In this document: positions 24,457 to 33,423 of the stretch, in pieces | Position numbering within the stretch: the first letter of the stretch is position 1 | Layout of the letters: each line of letters opens with the position of its first letter | Source of the DNA: Planctomycetia bacterium | Lineage (GTDB): Bacteria > Planctomycetota > Planctomycetia > Gemmatales > Gemmataceae | NCBI GenBank assembly: GCA_005808665.1 | Contig: SYLG01000031.1 | Coordinates: 1 to 58,344, forward strand | Length of the DNA: 58,344 nucleotides | Direction of reading: 5' to 3' | Notes under the pieces: model-generated | What the model was told of the DNA's origin: nothing | Seen by the model: the letters and a program-made list of their open reading frames with translations, nothing else | Databases searched by the model: none | Translations under genes and position numbers: made by a program

Positions 24457-26154
24457 ATGGCAACTGTATTTGTAAATAACCAACCGGTAGACATCGGCAA
24501 CGAAAAGCTGAACTGCGTTCAGGCGGCGGAGAAGGCCGGGGTCCTCATTCCCCACTATTGCTATCATCCTGCCCTCAGCGTAGTGGCATCCTGTCGCATG
24601 TGCCTGGTGGAAGTGGGCGAGAAAAAAGCCGATGGCACAATCTCCATGTTGCCCAAGGTTGTCCCAGGGTGTCAAACACCCGTCAAGGATGGAACCGTAA
24701 TCGTCACCCGTTCCGACAAGGCCAGGGATGCCCAGGAACGAACCCTGGAAAGCCTTCTGCTTAATCATCCTCTGGATTGTCCGGTTTGTGACAAAGCAGG
24801 GGAATGCTCACTTCAAGACTATAGTTTTGAATTTGGCAAAGCTGAAAGTCGAATGCACGACGAAAAAAAGACACCCCCCAACAAACCAGACCTCGGTCCC
24901 AATATCAATCTGTTTACCGATCGCTGCATTATGTGCAGTCGGTGTGTTCGCTTCACAAGGGAGATCTCAGGTACTTCTGAATTGTACATTACCAACCGGG
25001 GTGACCATTCCGAAATTGCGGTGTTTCCCGGCGATCCCCTTGACAACAAATTATCCACCAATGTGGTTGACCTGTGCCCGGTAGGGGCCCTGGCCTCCAA
25101 GGATTTTCTCTATAAACAGCGGGTTTGGAATCTTAAAACGGTGGACAGTGTTTGTCCCGGTTGCTCCACCGGATGCAGCATTCACATCGATGGGAACAAA
25201 GGAGTGATCCATCGCCTTCGCCCCCGAACCAATCCCAAAGCACAGGGTCATTTCATGTGCGATGAGGGCCGTTTGGGTTTCCACTATGCCAACTCGGCAG
25301 AACGCCTTCGCGAGCCAACGATTCGTGGACCTCATGGTTGGACAACCGTTGGCCACCGGGAGGCGGTCCAATCCGTCCAACAGGGTTTCAACGAACATTC
25401 CCTTCGTAGCATTACCGGAGTTTGGGCGGTTCTATCCCCATTCATGACAATCGAGGAGGCCTACCTGTTGGCCAATTGGATTCGTGATTTTGGGAGGGAA
25501 GCCCGACTGGTGCTTGGCCCCGTGCCAATTGTTGGCGAGGATGACCACTACCCTAAAGATTGTAGGGGGGAGGCGTCTCCGGGTGTGCCGAAGTTTACCA
25601 TTCGCGCCGAGAAGTGCCCCAATCGCAAGGGTGTGGAAGCCATTCTTCAGCACTTTACCGGGACCGTGCTTGGATTTGACAGTTTCTTGACCGCCCTGGC
25701 CAAGGGTCAGGTAAAAGCGGCCATACTTTCCGGGGGCTATATCCCCTTGGGCCGGGGCCATTGGTTTCCCGCAGAGTCGGTTCCTTTGCTGGAAAAGATA
25801 AACATGTTGGTGGTCCAGGAAATTTTTGCCAGCGCCCTTTCTCAAAAGGCCCATGTCGTTTTTCCCTCGGCCACTTGGGCCGAAAAGGAAGGAACCTATA
25901 TCAACCATCAAGGGTTAGCCCAGGAGATTCACTGGAATTCAGGCCCCCCAGGCGAGTCCCGAACCGATGGCCAGGTTTATCTGGACCTTTTGGGGCGAAC
26001 CGGTTTGATGCGAGCTCATCAGCTTCGGCGTGAAATTGCCCAGGTAGTTCCTGCGTTGAACCAACTATCCACAGGCTATTTGGGTACCCAGGGCGTCCTC
26101 CCCGGCGAGGCCCCTCCTGTCCAATCCCAAAAACGCAAAATCCCGGTGCACTAA
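24457..26154 (+). CDS. nuoG: NADH-quinone oxidoreductase subunit G (75 kDa), short form
   Basis: The 565-residue protein starts with a ferredoxin-like [2Fe-2S] domain (HYCYHPALSVVASCRMC, PGCQTPV). Then come the N5 ligands HPLDCPVCDKAGEC, with the unusual histidine, and the N4 ligands DRCIMCSRCVRF with CPVGAL. Next is CPGCSTGC followed 27 residues later by a cysteine, the C-x2-C-x3-C-x27-C pattern of the extra cluster N7, kept only in some bacteria. The C-terminal molybdopterin-type domain is short compared with the roughly 700-900 residues of many NuoG proteins but still has its final fold (AHVVFPSATWAEKEGTYIN). Confidence 0.95.
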   Translation: MATVFVNNQPVDIGNEKLNCVQAAEKAGVLIPHYCYHPALSVVASCRMCLVEVGEKKADGTISMLPKVVPGCQTPVKDGTVIVTRSDKARDAQERTLESLLLNHPLDCPVCDKAGECSLQDYSFEFGKAESRMHDEKKTPPNKPDLGPNINLFTDRCIMCSRCVRFTREISGTSELYITNRGDHSEIAVFPGDPLDNKLSTNVVDLCPVGALASKDFLYKQRVWNLKTVDSVCPGCSTGCSIHIDGNKGVIHRLRPRTNPKAQGHFMCDEGRLGFHYANSAERLREPTIRGPHGWTTVGHREAVQSVQQGFNEHSLRSITGVWAVLSPFMTIEEAYLLANWIRDFGREARLVLGPVPIVGEDDHYPKDCRGEASPGVPKFTIRAEKCPNRKGVEAILQHFTGTVLGFDSFLTALAKGQVKAAILSGGYIPLGRGHWFPAESVPLLEKINMLVVQEIFASALSQKAHVVFPSATWAEKEGTYINHQGLAQEIHWNSGPPGESRTDGQVYLDLLGRTGLMRAHQLRREIAQVVPALNQLSTGYLGTQGVLPGEAPPVQSQKRKIPVH

Positions 26155-26157
26155 GCC

Positions 26158-27591
26158 ATGAACATTACGGAACTTGTCGTTGTGCTCGTGACCATAGGGA
26201 TAGTCTTTGCCGGGGTCATGACATTTGTAGGTTATGGCAGTCTGTTAGAGCGAAAAATATCCGCATGGGTACAAGATCGCATTGGCCCCAATCGGGTCGG
26301 TTTCGATTTGAACCAACCGATACTTGGCCTTTTCAAGGGATTTTTTGGCCTGGGCCAACCTCTGGCAGACGGTGTCAAATTCTTCCTCAAGGAAGAATTT
26401 ATACCTAAAAATGTCGATAAAGTGTTTTATTTTCTTGCTCCAGCGGTGGCATTATCAACCGCCATGATCGCCTTCGCGGTTGTTCCCTTTGGATCCACCT
26501 CCGTTGTCCCACCCCTTGTGGATAATCGAATTGACCTGGCGGTTTCCCAACCCAATCCCAACTACCAGCATCGGGTCTATCCCCGAACCCATGGCGAACT
26601 GGATAAAATCAGGGCTGCCAACCCTTTTCGTTCCGAAATCCTTGACCAGGCCAGGAATCAGAACCCCAATATCGAGTTACCAAAGGTGGCTGGTTTCGAT
26701 TTGGGGAGATCAGAAGTTCGTTTTGGCATTGCTCCCCACCTTGATATTGGGGTCCTTTTCGTGTTTGCGGTCTCAAGCCTGGCTGTTTATGGGGTGGTTC
26801 TGGCCGGGTGGTCGTCCAATAGCAAATATTCCCTTTTCGGGGCCCTGAGGGCCAGTGCCCAACTAATCAGTTATGAGATTCCGATGGGTATGTCGATCCT
26901 GGTTGTTGTGTTCATGGTTGGGTCGCTAAACCTTCAGGCGATTGTCGAATTTCAGGCCAGGCATACATGGTTCATCGTGTATCAACCTCTTGGCTGCCTT
27001 TTGTTTTTGACGGCAATCTTTGCCGAATGCAACCGGCTTCCCTTTGATTTACCGGAATGTGAACAGGAGCTGGTTGGAGGGTACCATACAGAATACAGCT
27101 CCATGAAATTTGCCTGCTTTATGATGGGGGAATACACCCACATGGTTACCACCAGTTTCCTTTTGGTTGCAATGTTTTTCGGTGGGTGGAACATTCCCTT
27201 CCTGGTCACCCAGGATTTTCCAGGGGGTGCCCTTGGGTGGGGTGCAAAACTCGTGGTGTTTTGTGGCAAGATGGTTGCCGTGATTGCCTTCTTTATGCTG
27301 GTTCGCTGGAGCCTTCTTCGATTCCGCTTTGATCAGCTCATGGGTTTGGCCTGGAAGGGTTTAATGACCTTGGGAATTCTCAACACCGTTGGGGCTGTTG
27401 TAATTCTGCAAACCAGACCTTTGGGTGAATTAAGCCTTTGGCTCCTTCCTGCATGGTCGGTTATCGCCCTGTTAGCGGTTACCGGGTATAGCATGACCCG
27501 ACCCAAAGCCCCTAACCGGTTCCGGACGGGAATCAAGCGTGTGGACCAGCGGTTGCCATCCCACCAGGAGCTTGTGGGAAACCGGGTATAA
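26158..27591 (+). CDS. nuoH: NADH-quinone oxidoreductase subunit H with a large loop insertion
   Basis: NuoH (477 residues) is the membrane subunit that helps form the quinone tunnel. ERKISAWVQDRIGPNRVG and RLPFDLPECEQELVGGYHTEYS are intact. Most homologues have about 320-430 residues. The difference lies mainly between residues 115 and 190, where a hydrophilic stretch (NRIDLAVSQPNPNYQHRVYP to VAGFDLGRSEVRFG) separates AVVPFG from APHLDIGVLF; in E. coli this loop is short. The C-terminus also has a basic tail after the last membrane segment. Starts 3 bases after nuoG. Confidence 0.95.
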   Translation: MNITELVVVLVTIGIVFAGVMTFVGYGSLLERKISAWVQDRIGPNRVGFDLNQPILGLFKGFFGLGQPLADGVKFFLKEEFIPKNVDKVFYFLAPAVALSTAMIAFAVVPFGSTSVVPPLVDNRIDLAVSQPNPNYQHRVYPRTHGELDKIRAANPFRSEILDQARNQNPNIELPKVAGFDLGRSEVRFGIAPHLDIGVLFVFAVSSLAVYGVVLAGWSSNSKYSLFGALRASAQLISYEIPMGMSILVVVFMVGSLNLQAIVEFQARHTWFIVYQPLGCLLFLTAIFAECNRLPFDLPECEQELVGGYHTEYSSMKFACFMMGEYTHMVTTSFLLVAMFFGGWNIPFLVTQDFPGGALGWGAKLVVFCGKMVAVIAFFMLVRWSLLRFRFDQLMGLAWKGLMTLGILNTVGAVVILQTRPLGELSLWLLPAWSVIALLAVTGYSMTRPKAPNRFRTGIKRVDQRLPSHQELVGNRV

Positions 27592-27615
27592 CCAAGAAAG
27601 TGGCATGGATTTCCA

Positions 27616-28218
27616 ATGGCGATTAACACAAATGAGGTGACATGGGTAGAGCCTCCCCAATTGGGGATTCTCGACCAGTTGTATTTGCCTGCGATAGCGG
27701 GGGGTATGGCCACGGCGTTCAAACACCTTCTTGAAACGGTAACGGGAACCGGGCCAGAACCAACCCAGCAATATCCCGAAGAAAAACCCAAATTACCACC
27801 GCATTATCGTGGGTTACACCGTCTCAATCGGGACGAAGAGGGGCGGGTCAAGTGTGTGGCCTGTTATATGTGCTCAACTGCCTGTCCCGCACACTGCATC
27901 GACATCGTTGCCGCACCATCCCCTTGGAAGGATCGTGAAAAATATCCGGAAACCTTCGTCATTGATGAACTACGGTGCATCTACTGTGGAATGTGCGAAC
28001 AAGCGTGTCCCGTAGATGCCATTGAATTGACCAGTATTTTTGATCTGACCGGGCTTTCCCGGGAACAGATGATCTTTAACAAGGAAAAACTCCTAGGTGT
28101 TTTTGATGAAACGGTCCGTAAGGGAACAGATCCGATTCGGACCCATACCGGGAAACTTGGGCCCGCCAGTGAACCGGCGGAAGGTGGATTGACCGAATCA
28201 AGCAGTGCACAAAGCTAG
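27616..28218 (+). CDS. nuoI: NADH-quinone oxidoreductase subunit I
   Basis: This 200-residue subunit carries two [4Fe-4S] clusters (N6a and N6b). The ligand sets CVACYMCSTACP and CIYCGMCEQACP are perfect. The C-terminal 50 residues are Gly/Glu/Ser-rich and poorly conserved. A 104-base gap separates it from nuoJ; it contains no obvious terminator. Confidence 0.96.
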   Translation: MAINTNEVTWVEPPQLGILDQLYLPAIAGGMATAFKHLLETVTGTGPEPTQQYPEEKPKLPPHYRGLHRLNRDEEGRVKCVACYMCSTACPAHCIDIVAAPSPWKDREKYPETFVIDELRCIYCGMCEQACPVDAIELTSIFDLTGLSREQMIFNKEKLLGVFDETVRKGTDPIRTHTGKLGPASEPAEGGLTESSSAQS

Positions 28219-28322
28219 GATTATTGATTAGGGTAGGTCGATTCCTGGTGGGATGCTGACCTTGAATCCTGAAAAACAAGGAACGGGCCCCAGGGGAATG
28301 GAGCCCAAAGTGATTTGGGGAA

Positions 28323-29114
28323 ATGATGGAACTTTTTGCGGCTAGCCAACCTGGCCTTTTGCGAATGGACTATTTTTTTGCTTTGGCCCTTGGTGCCCTG
28401 GGGATTTACCTCCTTTTGCCCAAACCAAAAGGCAAAACCAGCCTCCTTGGTTCCTTGGCTGCGTTGGGTTCGCTTGCCTGGCTTGGCTACCTTGGTTTTT
28501 CGCCAACCGGAATCACGATTGAAACCGGGCTTTTTTACCTTTTTGGATTTTTTGCGTTGGTGGGTGCGGGGCTAATGGTGACCCAAACCAATCCAGCCCG
28601 GGCGGCAATATCCTTTGTCCTTGTGGTGATTTGTGTGGGGGGGCTGATGTTGTTGCTGGCAGCTCCTTTCCTTATGGCTGCCAACATGATCGTTTATGCC
28701 GGGGCAATTGTGGTTACTTTCCTTTTTGTTTTAATGCTCGCTTCGCAACGGGCCCCTTCCGATTCGGACAATCGCTCCCGGGAACCTGCCTTGGCATGTT
28801 TCACCGGCTTGGCTCTTTCGGCTAGCCTGATCCTGTTGCTTCAAAGGGATCAGGAAAATGCAAACAAGGGTATGGGCCAATGGAAGGGGCTTGGTGCCCC
28901 AGTTGCTGCTGTTCGCTTGCATCAAGAGGAAAACCTGCGGCGCGACGCAAGCGGTCGACCGCATTCCCCTGCCGACAACACCACTTTTTTGGGTCAAACC
29001 CTTTATACCTCCCTGCTTTTGCCGGTGGAACTTGCCGGGGCACTCTTGTTGGTGGCAACGGTTGGGGCAATCCTGATCGCCCAAAGGCGTTCCGGTGTGG
29101 AGGTGATGCCATGA
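28323..29114 (+). CDS. nuoJ: NADH-quinone oxidoreductase subunit J
   Basis: NuoJ (263 residues) is a membrane subunit. The conserved helix with the pi-bulge is recognisable in YLFGFFALVGAGLMVTQTNPARAAI and MIVYAGAIVVTFLFVLML. Compared with E. coli it has an extra N-terminal hydrophobic segment and a long hydrophilic loop (about residues 178-220, RDQENANKGMGQWKG onward) before the last helix. It ends with an ATGA overlap into nuoK. Confidence 0.92.
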   Translation: MMELFAASQPGLLRMDYFFALALGALGIYLLLPKPKGKTSLLGSLAALGSLAWLGYLGFSPTGITIETGLFYLFGFFALVGAGLMVTQTNPARAAISFVLVVICVGGLMLLLAAPFLMAANMIVYAGAIVVTFLFVLMLASQRAPSDSDNRSREPALACFTGLALSASLILLLQRDQENANKGMGQWKGLGAPVAAVRLHQEENLRRDASGRPHSPADNTTFLGQTLYTSLLLPVELAGALLLVATVGAILIAQRRSGVEVMP

Positions 29115-29554
29115 TGGAGGTTATTGATTTCCCCCCTGGTCTAACCCATTACCTTTCCCTTGGGGCCCTGTTGTTCGTGTTGGGATTGGTTGGGTTTTTG
29201 AGTCGGCGGAACATGATCCTCATGTTCCTGAATGCCGAACTGATGATTCAAGGTGTCGCTCTTAATTTTGTGGCGTTTGCAAGGCATCGCGGAAATTTGG
29301 AAGGGCAGGGATTCGTCCTTTTCCTTTTGGCGGTAGCTGCCTGTGAGGCGGCAATTGCCTTGGCCCTTATTCTGGTTTTGTACCGGACCCAACATTCGCT
29401 GGATGTGAGCGTGTGGCAAAACCTCCGCGAAGAAGGCCTGGATCCAACTCTGGATGAGGAGCCGCTGCCACTTGGTCCATTGGAAGAAAAAAGCCCCGTC
29501 CTTACCCCGGCCGGGATCGGGCCCCAACAGCCCGAGGAGACAAGCCATGTTTGA
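29111..29554 (+). CDS. nuoK: NADH-quinone oxidoreductase subunit K with C-terminal extension
   Basis: The first 100 residues match NuoK: LSLGALLFVLGLVGFLSRRN, MFLNAELMIQGVALNFVAF with the membrane glutamate, and AACEAAIALALILVLYR with the second glutamate; both are needed for proton transfer in the family. After that a tail of about 45 Pro/Glu-rich residues follows, absent from most NuoK proteins, which have about 100 residues. The frame is open upstream, but ATG 29111 sits in the ATGATG at the end of nuoJ and gives the standard N-terminus. Confidence 0.93.
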   Translation: MMEVIDFPPGLTHYLSLGALLFVLGLVGFLSRRNMILMFLNAELMIQGVALNFVAFARHRGNLEGQGFVLFLLAVAACEAAIALALILVLYRTQHSLDVSVWQNLREEGLDPTLDEEPLPLGPLEEKSPVLTPAGIGPQQPEETSHV

Positions 29555-31586
29555 CCCTTTCGGACTTGCCTTGATTCCATTGTTTCCTGCTTTGGCTGGT
29601 GCGATAATCCTTCTGTTTGGTCCCAGGATATTAAAAGGCCAAAGTCATTGGCCTTTGATTGCGGCATGTGTTGTGTCGTTCGTGCTTTCCCTTTTTGCAA
29701 TCCAATCCCTGCAAGGTGACTTGGGTATCCGCGAAATTTCCTATCAGGGCGGGCATTGGTTTTCCACCTCTGGACCCAATCCGGTTAGTGTGGGTTGGCA
29801 ATTCCGGATGGATCCCATTTCGGGGATGATGGTCCCCATGGTCCTCTTTTTGTCCACCATTATTGCCACCTTCTCGGTCGGTTATATGAAGGATGATCCA
29901 GGTTATTCGCGTTATTTCGGGATCTTTGCCCTTTTCGTTGCCGCAATGACGCTTCTGGTGTTGGCGGATAATGTCCTATTGCTTTATGCCGGTTGGGAAG
30001 GGGTGGGTGTTTGCTCCTTCCTTTTGATTGGTTTCTGGTTCCAAAAGCCAACCGCCCTAAAGGCTGCCCGTAAGGCATTTATGGTCACCCGAATTGGTGA
30101 TGTTGGGTTACTGTTGGGAATTTTAATGCTGTGGGTGGGGTGTGGATATTCCCTCCATATTCCAACTTTGTTGGTCAAAGCCCAAGCCCTTTCACCTGAA
30201 TATCTTTATATGGCGGGTTTCCTTTTGTTTGTCGGAGCCATGGGCAAAAGTGCCCAATTCCCGCTTCATATCTGGCTGCCCGATGCGATGGAGGGGCCGA
30301 CCCCGGTTAGTGCCCTCATTCATGCGGCGACCATGGTAACCGCTGGGGTGTACCTCGTTGCCCGGTTCCTGCCGTTCATCAGTTTATCACCCGATTTGTT
30401 GATCTTTATTGGCTTCATTGGTGGAATTACTGCCCTTTTGGCCGCCTTGATAGCCCTTACCCAGAATGACCTGAAACGGATTTTAGCCTACTCCACCATC
30501 AGTCAATTGGGGTACATGTTTATGGCCTTGGGTTCGGGGCGATCTGACCTATCCGGAACCAGCCTTGTTACCTTTGCCATGGTGGCCGCCATGTTTCATC
30601 TTTTTACCCACGCCTTTTTCAAGGCACTTTTGTTTCTATCCGCAGGGAGTGTGATGCACTCCATGGGACATGTTGTCGACCTAAGGCGTTTGGGTGGTTT
30701 GAGGAGGGTGCTACCGCTAACCCATATTGCTTTCCTTTCGGGGTCCCTGGCGCTGGTTGGCCTTTTACCTTTTTCCGGATTCTGGAGCAAAGATGAAATC
30801 CTGGTTGCATTGGATGCGGCCTCCCATGGCCCCAATCGAACGATTTCCTACATTGTTCTCACCTGGATAGGCCTTATCACAGCGGGATTGACCGCATTTT
30901 ACACTTTCCGGGCCTATTTTTTGGTGTTCTGGGGTGAGGTAAAAATCCCTATTGAAGTGCTTGCCCACGGAAATGGTGATCATGGACATTCGCACCCACA
31001 AGACAGTTATGATCCTCTCGCCGTGCTGTCCGATAAGACCGTGGCCCATGAATCCCCATGGATAATGACTCTTCCCCTGCTTGTTTTGATTCCCTTTGCC
31101 CTTGGGGTTGGTGGACTGTTTGGTCCCTCGCACACGATGTTTGATTTTTTGGCGGCAACCCCGGGGTATAGTGCATTTCATGGAGATTTTAGCACAAGCC
31201 ATTGGGTGGCGTTCGCTTCCCAAGTATTTGGGTTGGGAGGTATCGGCCTTGCCTTCCTTATGTATGTATTGCACCCCAGATTGGCTGCCGTAACGAAAAA
31301 AGTTTCAGGATCGGTCTACAATCTGTCCTTGAATCGCTTTTATCTGGATGAATTGTTGACAATCCTGTTTGTCCGCTCGCTTCAGATCTTAAGTTGGTTA
31401 ATCCAGGCTTTGGACAGGGAACTTTGGGACAAACTTGTCGATTCCGTGGCCCGGATCCCGGCATGGCTAGGTGACAAATTTCGACCTGTGCAAAACGGGC
31501 TTGTTCAGTTTTACGCCTTGGCGATGGCGTTGGGATTGACCATTTTCCTGGTATTCCTCGCCTTTGGGGATCGGCTTTTCCGCTAA
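29547..31586 (+). CDS. nuoL: NADH-quinone oxidoreductase subunit L
   Basis: NuoL (679 residues) is the distal antiporter-like proton channel. The motifs GWEGVGVCSFLLIGFW, FPLHIWLPDAMEGPTPVSALIHAATMVTAGVYL and the lysine helix LTQNDLKRILAYSTISQLGYM are canonical. A His-rich loop (HGNGDHGHSHPQDSY) lies before the C-terminal lateral helix. ATG 29547 gives MFDPFGLALIPLFPAL and overlaps nuoK by 8 bases; the frame is open further upstream but that part overlaps nuoK more deeply and has no family similarity. Confidence 0.95.
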   Translation: MFDPFGLALIPLFPALAGAIILLFGPRILKGQSHWPLIAACVVSFVLSLFAIQSLQGDLGIREISYQGGHWFSTSGPNPVSVGWQFRMDPISGMMVPMVLFLSTIIATFSVGYMKDDPGYSRYFGIFALFVAAMTLLVLADNVLLLYAGWEGVGVCSFLLIGFWFQKPTALKAARKAFMVTRIGDVGLLLGILMLWVGCGYSLHIPTLLVKAQALSPEYLYMAGFLLFVGAMGKSAQFPLHIWLPDAMEGPTPVSALIHAATMVTAGVYLVARFLPFISLSPDLLIFIGFIGGITALLAALIALTQNDLKRILAYSTISQLGYMFMALGSGRSDLSGTSLVTFAMVAAMFHLFTHAFFKALLFLSAGSVMHSMGHVVDLRRLGGLRRVLPLTHIAFLSGSLALVGLLPFSGFWSKDEILVALDAASHGPNRTISYIVLTWIGLITAGLTAFYTFRAYFLVFWGEVKIPIEVLAHGNGDHGHSHPQDSYDPLAVLSDKTVAHESPWIMTLPLLVLIPFALGVGGLFGPSHTMFDFLAATPGYSAFHGDFSTSHWVAFASQVFGLGGIGLAFLMYVLHPRLAAVTKKVSGSVYNLSLNRFYLDELLTILFVRSLQILSWLIQALDRELWDKLVDSVARIPAWLGDKFRPVQNGLVQFYALAMALGLTIFLVFLAFGDRLFR

Positions 31587-31608
31587 GGATGCCGCTTAAG
31601 GACCACTC

Positions 31609-33423
31609 ATGAAGGAAGCGCTTTTAGCCCTGATTGCCATACCTCTTTTTGGGGCATTGCTAACTGTATTTACGGCCAGGCATTGCCGTAATCGGGCCCG
31701 GACCATTGCCTTGACAGCAACTATTATGACGCTTGCAATAAGCGTTTGGTTGGTGGCGGTTGATTTTTGTGGTTGGGGTGGGCAACCTGGTTCGTATGCA
31801 GGGGAAACGCGCTTTCTGATCCTAGGAACCGGTGGCCCGGTTGACCCTTTACGGGGCATATCCTTTCATATCGGATTGGATGGCATTAGCCTGGGGATGA
31901 TCTTCCTGACAGGCTTCCTTTTTCCTGCAGCCCTTTTCCTGACGGGTAAAGCCTCCCCTTTGAATGATTGGGGTTTTCTCGCCTGGTTTCAAGCTCTTCA
32001 GGGCCTTACTTTCGGGGCTTTCCTGTCACTGGACCTGGTTCTTTTTTATCTCTTCTTTGAGTTGACACTCATTCCCCTCTACTTCATGGTTGGGGGTTGG
32101 GGCGGGGGACTAAGGATTGAAGCCGCAACCAAACTTTTCCTTTACGGCTTAACGGGAAGCCTTTTCACATTAGGTGGAATTGTAGGTGTCAGTTTAGCTT
32201 TGGGTGGGATGGACAAGGGTTGTGATTTCTCCATTCCAAGGCTTGTTCTTGTAGCCCAGGATCGTGGCAAACCCATGGAAGCTTCCATGGAAAGGGTGGC
32301 CAAAGCAAAATCGGAAATGGAAAAAACCATGTCCGATAGGGAAAAAGATGCGGCTCGGGCCAGGTTTGACGAGGCGGAACATGACCTGTTTCAAAAACGC
32401 AAAGTGGAGGCACAGTGGTTCAATTGGCAAACCACCCTGTTTTTGATGCTCATGGCTGGCCTTGCGGTAAAGATTCCGATTATTCCTGTCCACTTTTGGC
32501 AACCCTTGGCGTATCGCGAGGCCCCAATTGCCCTAACGGTGGTTTTAAGTGCAGCTCTTGCCAAATTGGGCCTTTTTGGAGTGGTTCGAATCGTCCTTCC
32601 TTTGTTGCCTGATGCTTCCGTGAGGTTGGCCACTCCAGTCCTCGGGACTTTGGCAACCATCGGAATTTTGTACGGGGGATTGGCCGCTTTGGGCACCTCA
32701 AACCTTCGTTCGATGTTGGCATTCAGTAGTATCAGCCACTTGGGGTTCTGCCTTTTGGGTTTGGTTTCACTTAATGAAACCGGCCTCACCGGGGGTGTGC
32801 TTCAAATGATCAATCACGGCATTACCACGGGTGGGCTTTGGTTGCTTGCCCTTATCCTTCTGGAAAGGTTTCCCTCTCTGGAAATTCACACCTTTAGTGG
32901 CATGGGGAAGCGGTTCAAGGCGATGGGTGTCGTTGCGGTTTTGTTGGTGCTTTCCTCTGTGGGCCTGCCTGGCCTAAACAATTTTGTCGGGGAGGCTTTG
33001 TCCCTTTTGGGAATGTTTGCCCAGGGAGGGGAGGGACGCCAGCTTGCCGTCCTGGCAACCCTGGGTCTGATCCTGGGTGCCTGGTATATGCTTAATTTTT
33101 TGCTTAGAACTTTTTATGGTGATGAGCGGATACCAGCGACGGTTCAGGGTCGGATTCCCACCGACCTTACCGGTTGCGAAAAGATGGTCTTTACTTCAAT
33201 CCTTGCCCTTTGTTTTTTGTTAGGCCTTTATCCCCAACCCGCCCTGAAAAGAATCTCGGCAGATACCCATCTTGTTGCCCGGGAATTGGGTGAAGCCAGG
33301 CGCCGTCAAATGGGTAACCCAATACCCGAAAACATCGGTTCCATGGTCCTCACCCATGGTTCTCCCAAGTCGGGCACGAATCAACCATCCGCACCCCAAA
33401 CCCAAAAAGGGGGAGCCCGATAA
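31609..33423 (+). CDS. nuoM: NADH-quinone oxidoreductase subunit M with coiled-coil-like insertion
   Basis: NuoM (604 residues) is the second antiporter-like subunit; most homologues have about 490-560. The key glutamate is in FFELTLIPLYFMVGGWGG and the membrane lysine in KIPIIPVHFW. Between residues about 205 and 272 lies a charged, Ala/Glu/Lys-rich stretch (MERVAKAKSEMEKTMSDREK and on) that looks like a helical hairpin or coiled coil and is not part of the usual fold. The nearby LPDAH segment reads QPLAY here, unlike NuoL, so the proton path may differ. Overlaps nuoN by one base (TAATG). Confidence 0.93.
   Translation: MKEALLALIAIPLFGALLTVFTARHCRNRARTIALTATIMTLAISVWLVAVDFCGWGGQPGSYAGETRFLILGTGGPVDPLRGISFHIGLDGISLGMIFLTGFLFPAALFLTGKASPLNDWGFLAWFQALQGLTFGAFLSLDLVLFYLFFELTLIPLYFMVGGWGGGLRIEAATKLFLYGLTGSLFTLGGIVGVSLALGGMDKGCDFSIPRLVLVAQDRGKPMEASMERVAKAKSEMEKTMSDREKDAARARFDEAEHDLFQKRKVEAQWFNWQTTLFLMLMAGLAVKIPIIPVHFWQPLAYREAPIALTVVLSAALAKLGLFGVVRIVLPLLPDASVRLATPVLGTLATIGILYGGLAALGTSNLRSMLAFSSISHLGFCLLGLVSLNETGLTGGVLQMINHGITTGGLWLLALILLERFPSLEIHTFSGMGKRFKAMGVVAVLLVLSSVGLPGLNNFVGEALSLLGMFAQGGEGRQLAVLATLGLILGAWYMLNFLLRTFYGDERIPATVQGRIPTDLTGCEKMVFTSILALCFLLGLYPQPALKRISADTHLVARELGEARRRQMGNPIPENIGSMVLTHGSPKSGTNQPSAPQTQKGGAR

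Follow-up and report, generated by a model that had tools for sequence, protein, structure and literature searches.

Several membrane-arm subunits of complex I are enlarged in the Gemmataceae contig SYLG01000031.1 (Planctomycetota), which raises the question of whether these additions form one shared outer layer that takes the place of accessory subunits, as proposed in an earlier sequence-only reading, or represent separate developments. The window, that is, the whole stretch of 58,344 nucleotides that was analysed, belongs to a 4.48 Mb genome that has one copy of nuoH and contains a complete nuoA-N operon of 14 genes at approximately 19.7 to 35.1 kb. The genes nuoH (26158..27591, 477 aa), nuoJ (28323..29114, 263 aa), nuoK (29111..29554, 147 aa) and nuoM (31609..33423, 604 aa), all located on the + strand, were correctly identified and placed by the earlier reading, and the expected Pfam families PF00146, PF00499, PF00420 and PF00361 were matched well above their cut-offs. 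The membrane-arm subunits H, J, K, L, M and N thus correspond to the complex I core. Moreover, a motif check together with the inspection of invariant columns revealed that the E and K motifs of NuoM, the glutamates of NuoK and the signature motifs of NuoJ and NuoH are intact. On balance, we consider it somewhat probable that the locus encodes an ordinary 14-subunit, predicted proton-pumping complex I that carries two fixed additions marking its type, with putative roles, and three independent periplasmic loops.

The nearest named records by NuoH identity were the loci L004 (90%) and L003 (82%). Compared with these relatives, dN/dS or pN/pS amounted to 0.05-0.31 in each extra part, some of these values being rough pN/pS ratios because the silent-site estimates were saturated in several comparisons with L003. 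Since changes at silent sites predominate in every part, the substitution pattern indicates that the extra parts are real coding sequence evolving as protein.

To size the loops, we aligned about 75 to 150 loci and counted the residues between fixed anchor positions. In NuoH, anchored alignment, insertion scan and solved structures revealed an insertion between TM2 and TM3 (26497..26709, +), a loop that is hypervariable in the family. It comprises 81 residues in the window versus mostly 15 (6-27) in other classes of the Planctomycetota, and solved structures of Thermus and Mycobacterium have 12-13 residues where the window has 80. Hence, the insertion is real, with about 66 extra residues instead of the approximately 75 originally claimed. 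Likewise, the charged insertion between TM6 and TM7 of NuoM (32221..32424, +) exists at a smaller size than the proposed 65 residues: the window has 99 residues versus 41-57, corresponding to 42-58 extra, and the comparison with the solved Paracoccus and Mycobacterium structures (73-76 versus about 29-30 residues) yields 44-46. The TM4-5 loop of NuoJ (28845..28988, +), described as long, is longer than usual only to a modest degree, with 58 residues versus mostly 28-39 and thus about 25 extra; the same length of 58 is found in L016 and L017 from other phyla. Two further additions had been missed, namely about 65 residues at the N-terminus of NuoJ and about 13 residues between TM1 and TM2 of NuoH. 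According to the known topology, the TM2-3 loop of NuoH, the TM4-5 loop of NuoJ and the TM6-7 loop of NuoM are periplasmic, while the C-terminus of NuoK and the TM1-2 loop of NuoH face the cytoplasm. A periplasmic location has likewise been described for the TMH6-7 loops of ND4 and ND5 (PMC11522691).

The small NuoH insertion (26302..26343, +), detected by insertion scan and motif check on the cytoplasmic, quinone side, sits within the conserved loop GPNRVG...QPLADG. It is also present in L003, L004, L051, L052, L149 and L151, shorter versions occur in L130, L165-L167, L172-L180 and L182, and extra residues of several lengths are found at this place in separate lineages. In the closest relative pair, the window and L003, the insertion is identical despite many silent changes.

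Structure prediction, one of the checks put forward along with the sequence-only reading, was performed for NuoM and NuoH and gave a helical insert in the former and an insert of low confidence in the latter. The AlphaFold model of NuoM comprises helices at residues 209-239 and 243-288, the latter continuing into TM7, with a local pLDDT of mostly 66-81, whereas the NuoH TM2-3 insert lies mostly below pLDDT 50 and has no confident predicted structure. Because they were built from few sequences (9 for NuoM, mean pLDDT 59; 17 for NuoH, mean pLDDT 55), the models are weak, and they lend some support only to a helical NuoM insert. When compared with solved structures, the models matched the expected NuoM and NuoH folds, a result that does not bear on the inserts.

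The C-terminal extension of NuoK (29432..29551, +) was delineated by anchored alignment, insertion scan, conservation and comparison with solved structures. In the window, 55 residues follow the last helix versus usually 15, so that the cytoplasmic tail, which had been estimated at 45 residues, has 40 extra. We compared 87 related loci of this tailed type, including 51 from Gemmataceae. The tail measures 53-59 residues in 50 of the 51 Gemmataceae loci and 69 in the remaining one, and ranges from 43 to 76 over all 87. Moreover, the residues L97, D98, W102, E107, L131, G135 and P138 are conserved at 97-100% across the 87 loci, and column conservation highlights the segment PVLTPAGIGP (29495..29524, +), which follows the family pattern PxLTPAGxxP. 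The tail contains many prolines and acidic residues and may serve as a flexible linker. When 198 genomes of the class were searched, it was present in most sampled families of the Planctomycetia, often alongside a second NuoK without tail; it is absent from all matched solved structures. Among 19,184 open reading frames in the fetched loci the tail motif recurred in one other, short frame, so that a docking motif shared with other proteins is not indicated. Outside subscription journals, our literature search yielded no paper treating a C-terminal extension of NuoK. The His- and Asp-rich tails in which NuoK ends in L114, L117, L127 and L128 from other classes were set aside, as they show no sequence relationship with the PxLTPAGxxP tail.

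The 3′-end of nuoK also harbors a GAGGAG site and the ATG of nuoL (29534..29549, +), and one might ask whether the tail is conserved solely on account of these translation signals in its DNA. In 64 of the 87 loci nuoL starts before nuoK has ended, in 55 a Shine-Dalgarno core lies within nuoK, and in the window GAGGAG encodes the two glutamates of the terminal EETSHV. Thus, about six residues at the very end of NuoK would be kept partly as the ribosome-binding site and start of nuoL, since these signals overlap them. However, the overlap accounts for no more than these residues and leaves the upstream motif unexplained: W102, E107, L131, G135 and P138 are located upstream of the signals, and the 23 loci without overlap still have the tail and keep the motif. 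Translation signals as the sole cause are therefore highly improbable.

The second addition is located at the N-terminus of NuoJ (28326..28520, +), where the insertion scan showed about 65 extra residues with two hydrophobic segments. As assessed by hydropathy and conservation, these segments, at approximately residues 12-33 and 41-59, resemble an additional pair of membrane helices. The pair was seen in 86 of 86 tailed-type loci, compared with 3 of the 30 canonical loci and none of the 6 loci of a second type, and it is missing from all matched solved structures. It would leave the N-terminus of NuoJ in the periplasm, and basic residues between the helices fit a cytoplasmic turn. Papers linking Planctomycetes with NuoJ were not found in our search, which covered literature other than subscription journals.

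A tree of the core subunits H, L, M and N unites the 87 tailed loci in a single clade (support 1.0); the branch that attaches next holds the three canonical loci carrying the NuoJ pair (support 1.0). On the simplest reading of this tree, the NuoJ pair was gained first and the NuoK tail second, each once. Judged by its NuoK tail with LD, W, E and LTPAG together with the NuoJ pair, the complex I of the window belongs to the tailed type. As far as sampled, with the range outside the Planctomycetota judged from five loci of other phyla and the solved structures, this type is confined to Planctomycetia and present across most of the class. The claim of a lineage-specific core enlargement is supported by the lack of both additions in the matched solved structures, and by a search for NDUFA12 and NDUFS4 homologues that gave no match in the window genome while the Caulobacter control was positive.

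The second, tail-less type (L183-L188) stems from the same class and often from the same genome as the tailed type, and several of its members have an enlarged NuoM TM6-7 loop of 47-135 residues. Unlike the window, these loci have a canonical NuoK tail of 15 residues, no NuoJ pair and a NuoH loop of 6 residues. The window genome, with its single nuoH, lacks this type. The enlarged NuoM loop of the second type is seen in Gemmataceae, and the NuoL open reading frame of L183-L188 is unusually long (834-915 residues).

Some peculiarities of the operons may be added. NuoG of the window (24457-26154) has 565 residues; the NuoG of well-studied bacteria is longer. In L052, L073, L079, L149 and L151, nuoM was not recognised between nuoL and nuoN and nuoL is followed with almost no gap by the frame assigned to nuoN; nuoM may reside elsewhere in these genomes or be misassigned. 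In the relatives L081, L082, L103, L104, L111, L116 and L138, nuoH has no recognised nuoI-N neighbours, and the operon appears to be split.

In contrast to the NuoK tail and the NuoJ pair, which are fixed, the loops of NuoH, NuoM and NuoJ are hypervariable and differ in length between genera, so that the parts fall into two sets. The alignment over planctomycete subunits accordingly bore out a common lineage pattern for the fixed additions, with the three loops varying independently. Within Gemmataceae, the loops range from 15 to 112 (NuoH), 44 to 178 (NuoM, leaving out one value of 9 that reflects a fragment or misalignment) and 56 to 296 residues (NuoJ); a NuoH loop of 152 residues occurs in one locus not included in this count. 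Phylogenetically independent contrasts of loop lengths gave r 0.22, p 0.06 for NuoH and NuoM, r 0.13, p 0.43 for NuoH and NuoJ, and r 0.08, p 0.33 for NuoM and NuoJ; the first correlation is borderline and may reflect a weak link. The NuoM loop comprises 44-53 residues in L049-L051 versus 99 in the window and L003, an alignment pattern indicating expansion in the genus of the window. Conversely, the NuoJ loop of the window is among the shortest of its own family, in which most loops measure 115-296 residues. A single clade (support 1.0) unites the window with L003 and L049-L051. As its NuoJ loops measure 56-63 residues and it is nested among the lineages with 115-296, this clade most simply appears to have lost roughly 100 residues of the NuoJ loop while its NuoH loop stayed long.

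These data bear directly on the proposal that all enlarged parts form a single coordinated outer layer replacing accessory subunits. Three of the parts do share the periplasmic side, the search of the genome yielded neither NDUFA12 nor NDUFS4, and accessory subunits are replaced by core extensions in other bacteria (PMC11522691). However, the parts differ in age and in membrane side, the NuoK tail being cytoplasmic and the three loops periplasmic, and the loop lengths do not significantly co-vary. Moreover, the NuoJ loop was shortened in the window clade with NuoH still long, and in many Gemmataceae the NuoJ loop is long although that of NuoH has remained short. The shared layer is therefore unsupported, and we regard it as improbable.

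Alternatively, every extra part could be neutral, disordered and devoid of a role. The low confidence of the predicted NuoH insert and the freely varying loop lengths are compatible with this notion, as is the disordered periplasmic insertion of 44 residues in Paracoccus ND5 (PMC11522691). Yet over 87 loci the NuoK tail has preserved its length together with seven near-invariant residues, and the tailed type invariably has the NuoJ pair. This explanation is unlikely for the parts as a whole but could well be correct if restricted to the loops of NuoH and NuoJ.

In E. coli, Mycobacterium, Thermus and Paracoccus, extensions of core subunits have been described as taking the place of accessory subunits (PMC11522691, PMC8357420). 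The principle is thus already established, and the particular additions seen here are, as far as we found, undescribed. Like the window, the complex I of Paracoccus denitrificans (8qby; PMC11522691) combines 14 core subunits with core extensions, among them periplasmic hairpins in the TMH6-7 loops of ND4 and ND5 and a cytoplasmic C-terminal extension of ND6, 33 residues long, that touches the hydrophilic arm. ND4L and ND6 are located at the corner between the arms, and ND4L is among the subunits contacted there (PMC11522691). Unlike the window, the matched Paracoccus chains have neither a NuoK tail nor an N-terminal NuoJ helix pair, and the enzyme has the accessory subunits NDUFS4, NDUFS6 and NDUFA12, the first and last of which were not found in the window genome. 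In the minimal bacterial complex of E. coli, core extensions likewise overlap the places of accessory subunits; in contrast to the window, those described belong to the peripheral arm, and NuoK and NuoJ comprise 100 and 184 residues (PMC8357420).

Taken together, in the reading that we favor, an ordinary complex I with two fixed additions and three independent loops, the NuoK tail would act as a strap on the cytoplasmic side, stabilising the complex by docking its PxLTPAGxxP segment on an adjacent subunit close to the corner where the two arms meet. The NuoJ pair would pack along the membrane-arm edge and serve as built-in accessory helices, and the variable loops would be mostly tolerated elaborations, the NuoM loop possibly forming a helical hairpin on the periplasmic face. 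NuoK adjoins the channel linking quinone chemistry to pumping, and the third helix of NuoJ moves during the catalytic cycle. A more far-reaching version, which we put forward tentatively and consider rather unlikely, is that a form of complex I peculiar to Planctomycetia has evolved in which the NuoK tail straps the membrane arm to the hydrophilic arm, the NuoJ pair serves as accessory helices and the opening and closing in coupling is altered. Structures of bacterial complex I come from few phyla and, to our knowledge, none from Planctomycetota. The NuoK tail and the NuoJ helices would lend themselves to studying the way in which accessory subunits are replaced by core extensions, and both provide simple sequence markers separating the two complex I types in Planctomycetia genomes.
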